Of a stretch of DNA of 64,000 bases, positions 52,314-54,617 are shown piece by piece (within the stretch, counting starts at the first letter, position 1; the number at the start of each line of letters is the position of its first letter). The stretch lies in contig NZ_CP060724.1 in NCBI RefSeq assembly GCF_014397255.1, positions 310,001 through 374,000 on the forward strand. Direction: 5' to 3'. The notes under the pieces are model-generated. The model worked only from the letters and a program-made list of their open reading frames with translations. It searched no databases and was not told the DNA's origin. The position numbers were made by a program, and so were the translations under genes. The stretch comes from Weissella diestrammenae (GTDB taxonomy: Bacteria > Bacillota > Bacilli > Lactobacillales > Lactobacillaceae).

Positions 52314-52641
52314 GTCTTAGAGGCTCCTTTCAAAATTCTATAAAATTTAGTCCACAATACCGGGCGTATCGTATAAAAATACGTCGAAATTGCAGCTGTT
52401 TGGTACTATCCAAAGCTAGTTCAGCACGTCGCGCGAACTAACGCGGACACCAACTTGATTTAAGCACAAAGAATATATTACCATCCCACAAATGAAATTG
52501 CAACCACTTTCTGCAAAACAATCCGGATAAGGTGGGCATTCGTTTTGCAAACATTACCGGGCGTATCATTATCGCGTTGTGCAATGATTGTCACAGATTG
52601 CTCACAATTGGCTCTTTTTTAACTATTAAGGAGTATTGATC
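52314..52641. promoter_or_regulatory. Divergent region, rpsL leader with repeats
   Basis: TACCGGGCGTATC occurs twice in direct orientation (52358-52370 and 52555-52567), 197 bp apart. Between them lies a hairpin TAGTTC...GAACTA (52418-52440) with a GC-rich inner part. It is the promoter and leader region of the str operon on one strand and of the A24 gene on the other; I cannot assign a secure -10/-35 pair. Confidence 0.45.
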
Positions 52642-53022
52642 ATGTCATTCATGTTTACATTTGTGCTCTTATTTTTAAGCTGGCAGGACTGGCAAACATA
52701 TCAAATCAGTAGTTGGTTACTAATGCCAATAATATGGTTAGCCAGTCTTTCATTCAAGATAATGGACATGCTTTTAGTATTAGGCATCTATATATTAACG
52801 CTTTTCGTCAACAAATTATCTGAAAAGTACATCGGTTCTGGTGACATTGATATCATGTTTACCAACTTTTTAGTTTTAAATGACCCTCAACAATGGTTAT
52901 TGTGGCTGACGTTAAGCAGTCTTTTGGCTTATGGCTATGCCCACAGCACTAAGCGCATCCAGTTACCGTTCGTTCCATTTTTAACCATTGCCAATATTTT
53001 GAATCTATCGTTTTATCCATAA
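52642..53022 (+). CDS. Stand-alone A24 prepilin-peptidase-like protein
   Basis: The 126-residue protein has about four to five membrane segments and only the aspartic-peptidase half of a type IV prepilin peptidase: SWQDWQTYQISSWLL carries the first Asp (family D...x.IP..l) and IGSGDIDIMF is the GxGD motif with the second. The N-terminal Cys/methyltransferase domain of PilD/ComC is missing. It may process competence pseudopilins or another signal. The start at 52642 follows AAGGAG at 8 nt; a TTG 6 nt upstream is unsupported. Lone plus-strand gene between rpsL and rplT, with a terminator. Confidence 0.75.
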   Translation: MSFMFTFVLLFLSWQDWQTYQISSWLLMPIIWLASLSFKIMDMLLVLGIYILTLFVNKLSEKYIGSGDIDIMFTNFLVLNDPQQWLLWLTLSSLLAYGYAHSTKRIQLPFVPFLTIANILNLSFYP

Positions 53023-53050
53023 AAAAACGAGCATCCGCTCGTTTTTAAAT
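53020..53050. terminator. Bidirectional terminator
   Basis: Stem AAAACGAGC / GCTCGTTTT with a 4-nt loop, A7 and T5 flanks; shared by the A24 gene and the infC-rpmI-rplT operon. Confidence 0.88.
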
Positions 53051-53052
53051 AA

Positions 53053-53619
53053 TTATACTAATGCTAGCAAATCAGCCTTCTTTGCAGAAGAAGCGTATTC
53101 GACATTTTGTGCATCCAAATATGCTTTAATTTCAGCAACAGTATTTTTGTCTGAAGGCTTTTCAGCACTTACTTCAGCTTTTTTTGCTGGCTTTGGTTCA
53201 GCAACAGTCACTGTTACTTCTGTTTCCAAAGTTGCAGGTGTTACTTCATGAAAAGCTTGTCCGTTATCAGTCAAAGCTTTCTTAGCAGCGTCAGTCAAAG
53301 CAGTAAATGCTTTTGCGTCAGTCACTGCCAAATCTGCCAACATCTTACGGTTCAACTTTGAACCCATCAAAGCAAGACCATTCATGAAACGTGAGTATGA
53401 CAACCCATTCATCCGAGCAGCAGCATTAATACGTGTAATCCACAACTTACGGAAATTACGCTTTGTTGCCTTACGATCACGGAATGCGTAAACCCATCCC
53501 TTCCAAACTTGTTGCTTAGCAACTTTATAATTAATATGACGTTGTCCACGGTAGCCCTTGGCTAACTTAATCATTTTCTTACGACGTGCACGTGAAACTG
53601 TTCCACCCTTTACTCGCAT
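53053..53619 (-). CDS. rplT: 50S ribosomal protein L20 with C-terminal HeH/LEM-like extension
   Basis: Residues 1-117 are an ordinary L20: [37 protein letters not shown] and [28 protein letters not shown] (key part MNGLALMG). L20 normally ends near 118. Here an additional 70 residues follow: a linker (about 118-157) rich in Thr, Val, Pro and Lys, then [28 protein letters not shown], which has the helix-extension-helix pattern of HeH/LEM domains (TVAEIKxYLDxxxIxYxxxxxKxxLLxLV). There is no frameshift; the frame reads straight through to the terminator. L20 binds 23S rRNA early in assembly and represses its own operon. SD TTGGAGG sets the start. Confidence 0.93.
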
Positions 53620-53676: not shown

Positions 53677-53874
53677 TTAAACGCGGCTCAATAGGTGCTT
53701 ATATGTCTTTAATGTCGTATGGTTCATCATTGATGTTCCACGTAATTGACGCCGTTGCTTCTTAGTCTTACCGTGGAAACGGTGTGAAGTATAGGCATTC
53801 CCTGACTTCAAACCACCATTGGCAGTCTTCTTAAAACGCTTTGCTGAAGCGCGGTGTGTCTTAAACTTAGGCAT
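53677..53874 (-). CDS. rpmI: 50S ribosomal protein L35
   Basis: The 65-residue protein is a typical L35: [37 protein letters not shown] (key part [10 protein letters not shown]). Second gene of infC-rpmI-rplT, SD TTGGAGGA. Confidence 0.97.
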
Positions 53875-53901: not shown

Positions 53902-54438
53902 TTACTTGGCGTCCTTAGGGGCGAGCACCATGAACATGCTACGTCCCTCCATCTTCGCGCGCGCTTCGATTTTTGCAATATCATCGAGTTCATTAGCAAA
54001 GCGATCCATCACTTCGCGTCCAATCTCTTTGTGCGTAATCGCGCGGCCACGGAAACGAATTGATACTTTGACTTTATTACCTTTTTGCAAGAACTTTGTT
54101 GCATTGTTCTTTTTGGTTGTAAAATCGCCAGCGTCAATTGTAGGACTTAGACGAATTTCCTTAACAGTAACAATTTTCTGGTTCTTGCGTTGTTCACGAA
54201 CCTTCTTTTGACTATCAAACTTGAATTTACCATAATCCATAATCTTAGCAACGGGTGGCTTTGCTGTCGCTTGAACTAGAACTAAATCTAGTTCCGCATC
54301 GTCAGCAATTCTTTGCGCCTCAGATTTTGACATGATACCTTGATCACCGTCATCAGTAATTAAACGCACTTCCCGTGCACGGATATGATCATTGATTAAA
54401 TCTTGTTGCTGTTGTGGTTGACGTACATTAGCTGCTAT
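53902..54438 (-). CDS. infC: Translation initiation factor IF-3 (AUA start)
   Basis: The protein has both IF-3 domains: N-terminal [20 protein letters not shown], linker with [16 protein letters not shown]-terminal [13 protein letters not shown] and [16 protein letters not shown]. The conserved [14 protein letters not shown] begins well upstream of any ATG or GTG that would do; the in-frame codons lead back to ATA at 54436-54438, with AGGAGG exactly 8 nt before it and a stop (TAG) within that SD. IF-3 genes classically use rare starts (AUU in E. coli) so IF-3 can repress itself; AUA would work the same way. That gives 178 residues, N-terminus (M)[15 protein letters not shown] at 54369 would remove conserved residues. 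Confidence 0.9.
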
Positions 54439-54617
54439 GGTCTTGACCTCCTAATTTTCTTCCAAAACAAAGTAAAAGCGGATTACTGCTCATCGCAATA
54501 ACCCACCATTCATTCAATAATTAATGAAATCGATTGACCTGAAGACAAAATCTCCTAGGTGAACAGCGGGTGGCCATTGCTTTGCTTTCTAACAGATATT
54601 ACTTTACTCGTTATGCC
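54439..54617 (-). promoter_or_regulatory. infC leader, probable L20-type autoregulatory leader
   Basis: Minus strand: GGGTTATTGC / GCAGTAATCC (54480-54489 with 54495-54504) forms a 10-bp stem with G-U pairs and loop GATGA, then GCTTTTACTTTG, about 40 nt before the start. Firmicutes infC-rpmI-rplT operons carry an L20-binding leader in this place. I have not shown a match to that family's consensus. Confidence 0.45.

Follow-up and report, generated by a model that had tools for sequence, protein, structure and literature searches.

Introduction

Extensions of more than 20 amino acids are common on ribosomal proteins across bacteria, and their functions are largely elusive (PMC9534751). In Mycoplasma pneumoniae, disrupting such extensions affects fitness (PMC9534751). 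Ribosomal protein L20 (bL20) is among the proteins required in the first assembly step of the 50S subunit (PMC10931766). Here we describe the bL20 gene, rplT, in a 64,000-nucleotide stretch of the Weissella diestrammenae genome (contig NZ_CP060724.1, forward-strand positions 310,001 to 374,000; hereafter the window). An initial annotation, made from the letters of the window, had read its product as L20 fused to a helix-extension-helix (HeH)/LEM domain. That reading stands against the refuting conditions set with it: the Pfam profiles of both parts score above their curated cut-offs, the predicted structure of the tail agrees with the HeH/LEM assignment, and the tail is kept in all genomes of the genus that were examined. 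The roles suggested there for the tail, namely tethering another factor, binding DNA or RNA, coupling transcription to 50S assembly and altering L20 autoregulation, are candidates. The description of L20 length as near-invariant was slightly overstated; NCBIfam already holds two L20 fusion or variant models.

Results

Architecture of the protein

The gene is an uninterrupted open reading frame (ORF) on the minus strand, comprising 188 codons and a stop. Its parts are listed below with the ratio of non-synonymous to synonymous change (pN/pS), pooled over 299 species pairs with synonymous divergence (dS) <1.

53053..53619, minus strand: rplT, bL20 with a C-terminal HeH tail (ORF, profiles, genome comparison).
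53281..53619, minus strand: bL20 core, residues 1-113 (PF00453, E 1.5e-43; TIGR01032, E 2.7e-43; charge; pN/pS 0.19).
53206..53280, minus strand: end of the core helix and clade-specific stub, residues 114-138, with an A129-T130 motif (comparison; pN/pS 0.51).
53161..53205, minus strand: flexible linker of Ala, Lys, Val, Glu, Ser and Pro, residues 139-153 (predicted local distance difference test score, pLDDT, <50; pN/pS 0.78; composition).
53056..53160, minus strand: HeH/LEM domain, residues 154-188, with the Pfam match at 160-188 (PF12949; predicted helices; pN/pS 0.23).

The Ribosomal_L20 profile (PF00453) matched residues 2-108 with 147.8 bits against a curated cut-off of 30.8, and TIGR01032 scored 146.9 bits against 65.65, which identifies the core as bL20. 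Its net charge was +20 to +25 in 33 fusion proteins. The HeH profile (PF12949) matched residues 160-188 with an E-value of 1.3e-8 and 34.9 bits (curated cut-off 28.9); when the 70-residue tail was the sole query, the E-value was 7.3e-10. Both Pfam families were matched by all of the 16 fusion proteins scanned singly, with PF12949 E-values up to 0.001. Chance and sequencing error were ruled out as explanations because the same architecture is open across 26 Weissella genomes and Oenococcus, with both profiles in 16/16 proteins.

The tail consists of three parts, namely the stub (114-138), a disordered linker of varying length and the HeH/LEM domain. The residue boundaries first proposed, a tail from about 118 and a domain at about 160-188, were accurate, and the linker and domain were correctly placed; the three-part layout, the shared stub and the minus strand had not been mentioned. 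We are highly confident of this anatomy, in which an L20 core is followed by a stub particular to the clade, then by a disordered linker and lastly by a conserved domain of HeH fold.

Distribution of the tail

Among 397 Lactobacillaceae genomes, full-length fusion matches were found in 26 Weissella-genus genomes and in at least 6/7 Oenococcus genomes (L019 and L020 are Oenococcus loci), the remaining Oenococcus genome being of low completeness. A separate scan with PF12949 found the domain in 27/27 Weissella-genus genomes. The host genome, a single contig of 1.66 Mb, contains the domain in L20 only, and a single copy of bL20 was found there.

Three length classes of L20 were observed. The protein has 181-212 amino acids in Weissella and Oenococcus, where the same stub region is followed by the linker and HeH. 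It has 139 amino acids in genera that we call Leuconostoc-type from their kinship with Oenococcus; there it ends in a stub such as RVAATLETTVKVDR and lacks HeH. In other Lactobacillaceae, Periweissella included, it has 117-119 amino acids. Past the L20 stop of the Leuconostoc-type genera no HeH remnant was seen, and terminator-like sequence lies close behind. Among the matches listed, the fusion was absent from Periweissella and from other Lactobacillaceae and Bacilli, and the best-scoring matches of a fusion profile against 299 Bacilli genomes included no L20 with such a tail. The control ribosomal protein bL21 was of ordinary length, with a frame of 105 amino acids.

Loss of the fusion in a Weissella confusa draft (L040, L087) was considered and rejected. 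In this draft, strain FS54, rplT is present as pieces of 180-200 bases in scrambled order, every one of which matches the intact gene with 100% identity. This is an assembly artefact able to mimic gene breakage.

Conservation and predicted structure

The pN/pS values rank the four segments and are no formal test, because branches of the tree are common to several species pairs, which makes the pairs non-independent. The HeH domain is under purifying selection near the level of the ribosomal core (0.23 and 0.19), and the linker drifts. Linker length ranges between species from 8 to 42 amino acids, whereas HeH is constant at 35. A129 and T130 of the stub were invariant in 16 fusions. Invariant tail positions included K154, P155, T160, V161, A162, I164, K165 and L168, followed by S178, A179, K180, K181, L184, L185 and L187. 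Conservation of the head next to a linker that drifts is what one expects of a functional domain on a tether.

AlphaFold2 modelled the full protein with the known helical L20 core and a disordered stretch at residues 139-152 (pLDDT <50). The low scores and the variable length bear out the flexible linker that had been proposed. HeH was predicted as helix-loop-helix, with helices at 161-170 and 181-187 and pLDDT of about 80 in the full protein; the final 39 residues modelled alone reached 87.8. The prediction thus has the helix, extended loop and helix of the HeH fold.

In a structure search with the HeH model alone, T4 endonuclease VII (1e7l) was matched with Z 3.9 and a root-mean-square deviation of 1.0 over 33 residues. 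The SAP domains of Ku70 (1jjr, Z 3.3) and Tho1 (4uzw, Z 3.1) and the Rho N-terminus (8q3n, Z 3.0) were also matched. All of these Z-scores are low because the model has just 39 residues. Foldseek against viral models returned proteins named LEM-like and Rho-N-like, every one with E >=0.04. The sole match of the tail in a sequence search of the PDB was 2out (E 0.73), and the list from a structure search with the whole protein was filled by matches to the L20 core.

Origin of the HeH domain

The initial annotation related the domain to phage proteins, and similar domains were indeed found in phage-type proteins. PHROGs matches of HeH were to phage families, among which were Arc-like repressors and also small proteins to which no function is assigned. 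A translated search of phage genomes found major capsid proteins of Streptococcus phage Javan626 (E 3e-4) and Leuconostoc phage phiMH1 (E 5e-3). The HeH proteins other than L20 that were inspected in the genus, a subset that leaves out several weak matches of the PF12949 scan, were phage-like and had LysM/endolysin-type or structural parts. One phage-type HeH is identical to the window HeH at 26/35 positions; pairs of L20 HeH domains go down to 20/35.

As a separate observation, a Weissella phage-type protein (L102, ~1477-2184, and the same position in L103) has an N-terminal HeH that closely resembles the L20 tail and continues into Ig-like and LysM parts, which is an unusual combination.

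Capture from a phage is plausible because all the inspected non-L20 HeH proteins of the genus are phage-like and one of them is 26/35 identical, and this direction is the likelier one because HeH is widely spread in phages. Judged from these sequences, a phage gene is the probable source of the domain, with the reservation that 35 residues cannot prove the direction of transfer.

In a tree built from the L20 core, L35 and IF3, Periweissella fell outside a group of Weissella, the 139-amino-acid genera and Oenococcus (support 100). Oenococcus was placed with the 139-amino-acid genera (support 100), and branching inside that group was poorly supported (41-44). The simplest history suggested by this tree is a single gain of HeH by the common ancestor of Weissella, Oenococcus and Leuconostoc, once Periweissella had branched off, with later loss in the 139-amino-acid genera. 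Two independent gains are a less simple alternative.

Operon and neighbouring genes

The operon infC-rpmI-rplT is present, with rplT third, behind infC and rpmI. The features around rplT are as follows.

53023..53046, no strand assigned: palindrome AAAAACGAGC-ATCC-GCTCGTTTTT (sequence read directly).
53677..53874, minus strand: rpmI, bL35 (ORF, sequence).
53902..54438, minus strand: infC, IF3 (IF3_N and IF3_C matches).
54464..54588, minus strand: L20_leader (RF00558), a diverged attenuator upstream of infC (42.4 bits, E 7.7e-6).

The palindrome, with its T-runs, lies directly past the rplT stop and also past a converging gene. It is likely a bidirectional terminator, as read from its sequence; a consensus scan did not list it among its matches. 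The converging gene (52636-53022, plus strand) encodes a prepilin-peptidase-like protein of 128 amino acids that has only the peptidase domain (Peptidase_A24, E 1.5e-6), and the terminator region is common to it and rplT.

The infC start codon is apparently ATA (54436-54438, minus strand), with AGGAGG ahead. The ATA start was also seen in the loci of W. cibaria, W. confusa, W. oryzae and W. thailandensis.

A link between the tail and loss of Rho was dropped: no Rho scored above the curated cut-off in 23/23 Lactobacillaceae genomes, with or without the tail. The best Rho matches in these genomes resemble rotary-ATPase relatives, and three Periweissella genomes have an additional Rho-like ATPase of about 444-450 amino acids.

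Discussion

Possible function of the tail

We put at about even the chance that the HeH tail is a functional docking module on ribosomes. L20 would enter the 50S subunit normally, with its basic core on domain II of 23S rRNA. The tail would hang from the subunit as a flexible tether displaying HeH, and this head would then dock on a ligand. The linker sequence would be free to drift because flexibility is its sole requirement, and the head would keep a constancy near that of the core. Candidate ligands are nucleic acids (rRNA during assembly, mRNA or nucleoid DNA), with a protein as the alternative. Nucleic acid is somewhat favoured because the SAP, Rho N-terminal and endonuclease VII folds are nearest and K165, K180 and K181 are invariant; on this sequence and model evidence, nucleic acid as the ligand is a tentative proposal. 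The fuller reading, in which a phage-type HeH captured by L20 became a tethered docking head on all ribosomes of two genera, is unlikely by our estimate.

Several points weigh against a docking module, or against nucleic acid as its ligand. The net charge of HeH is about 0 (median 0, range -1 to +3), so that strong non-specific binding of nucleic acid is not expected. Lysyl-tRNA synthetases and the BiP-binding domain of CDNF scored level with the SAP, Rho and endonuclease VII matches, and a protein ligand is therefore equally compatible; the modelled fold is compatible with either kind of binding. A ligand, binding data and proteomic evidence for the tail were looked for, and none was found. 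Presence of the tail on mature ribosomes is inferred, not observed. HeH also seems dispensable on an evolutionary scale, because the Leuconostoc-type genera lack it.

The alternative that survives best, though we think it rather unlikely, is that the tail aids assembly, the linker and HeH gripping 23S rRNA or an adjacent ribosomal protein early in 50S assembly with no later partner. The Weissella fusions differ in the L20 core too, and the fold class of HeH contains nucleic-acid binders. However, a linker of 8-42 amino acids is easier to reconcile with a mobile domain than with a fixed contact, and the genera with only the stub build ribosomes without HeH.

It is improbable, somewhat more so than an assembly aid, that the tail is cleaved off after translation or is tolerated without function. 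No ribosome proteomics showing the tail was found and the Leuconostoc-type genera manage without HeH, and both points would accord with this view. The low pN/pS of HeH and its constant length beside a drifting linker, in Weissella as in Oenococcus, nevertheless demand selection at the protein level; the domain might still function after cleavage.

The initial annotation also suggested that the tail might alter L20 autoregulation. HeH would then change the binding of free L20 to the infC leader and so set the levels of IF3, L35 and L20. At the host locus the L20_leader match is in the correct position and scores below the gathering score of 58.7. Tail-bearing loci gave 13 matches of 33.0-52.3 bits, with two loci missed by the model, and 17 loci without HeH (tail-less or stub) gave 49.8-69.6 bits. 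The lower scores are a weak hint in favour, and a function in regulation is not established by them. The ranges overlap and plain divergence may explain them, and the leader layout is still recognisable in L001 where the model misses it. The difference is a mere lead because the tail is confined to two lineages, and we regard feedback control as quite improbable. Apart from this question, leaders farther from the Rfam model than those of tail-less relatives were seen in Weissella and Oenococcus loci L001, L003, L007, L009, L015 and L018-L021, the two misses being L001 and L009.

Least probable, and very unlikely in our view, is that the HeH of L20 and that of phages bind one host component, with the L20 copy competing against phage proteins or serving as a decoy: the domain occurs in phage-type proteins at up to 26/35 identity (against 20/35 within L20) and in capsid proteins of lactic-acid-bacterial phages, but plain domain capture explains the likeness too and no sign of defence was seen.

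On the fuller reading, the docking head would give the ribosomes of these two genera a function peculiar to their lineage; its partner, a specific cell component such as RNA, DNA of the nucleoid or a factor, may be one that phage HeH proteins bind as well. The tail is compact, named and separately folded, whereas most ribosomal-protein extensions are disordered and unexplained. Culturable food bacteria offer a clean phylogenetic contrast of full tail, stub only and none, and the fusion makes the role of such extensions testable through domain deletion. It also illustrates how a phage module is likely to have entered the translation machinery.

Comparison with known systems

In the literature searched, which has the coverage of one library, no paper on an L20-HeH fusion was found. 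With ordinary bL20 (PF00453, TIGR01032) the window protein shares the full 113-residue core, the infC-rpmI-rplT operon and an L20_leader upstream. It differs in length, with 188 amino acids and an added domain where 117-119 are usual in Lactobacillaceae.

With the phage HeH/LEM domains (PF12949) the tail shares the pattern TVAEIK..L...I.... and two helices with an extended loop; several phage families likewise have HeH at the C-terminus behind a flexible linker. SAP, Rho N-terminal and endonuclease VII C-terminal domains are fold relatives. Unlike its phage counterparts, the L20 HeH sits on a ribosomal protein, is strongly constrained by purifying selection and is near neutral in charge, and binding is a candidate activity.

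The extensions surveyed in PMC9534751 are also lineage-specific and terminal, but are mostly disordered and largely of unknown function, whereas the L20 tail ends in a named, separately folded domain of mobile elements; the main text of that survey does not treat L20. NF011109 (an L20/unknown domain fusion, PRK14537) and NF051450 (an L20 sunset domain variant) both describe a longer C-terminal part on L20. The window protein scored far below their cut-offs (131.3 bits against 187 and 126.4 bits against 375), so the protein described here is another fusion. A scan of the phylum with NF011109 gave none above the cut-off. Because ribosomal-protein extensions are common and NCBIfam models two other L20 fusions or variants, L20-HeH is a further case of a known kind.
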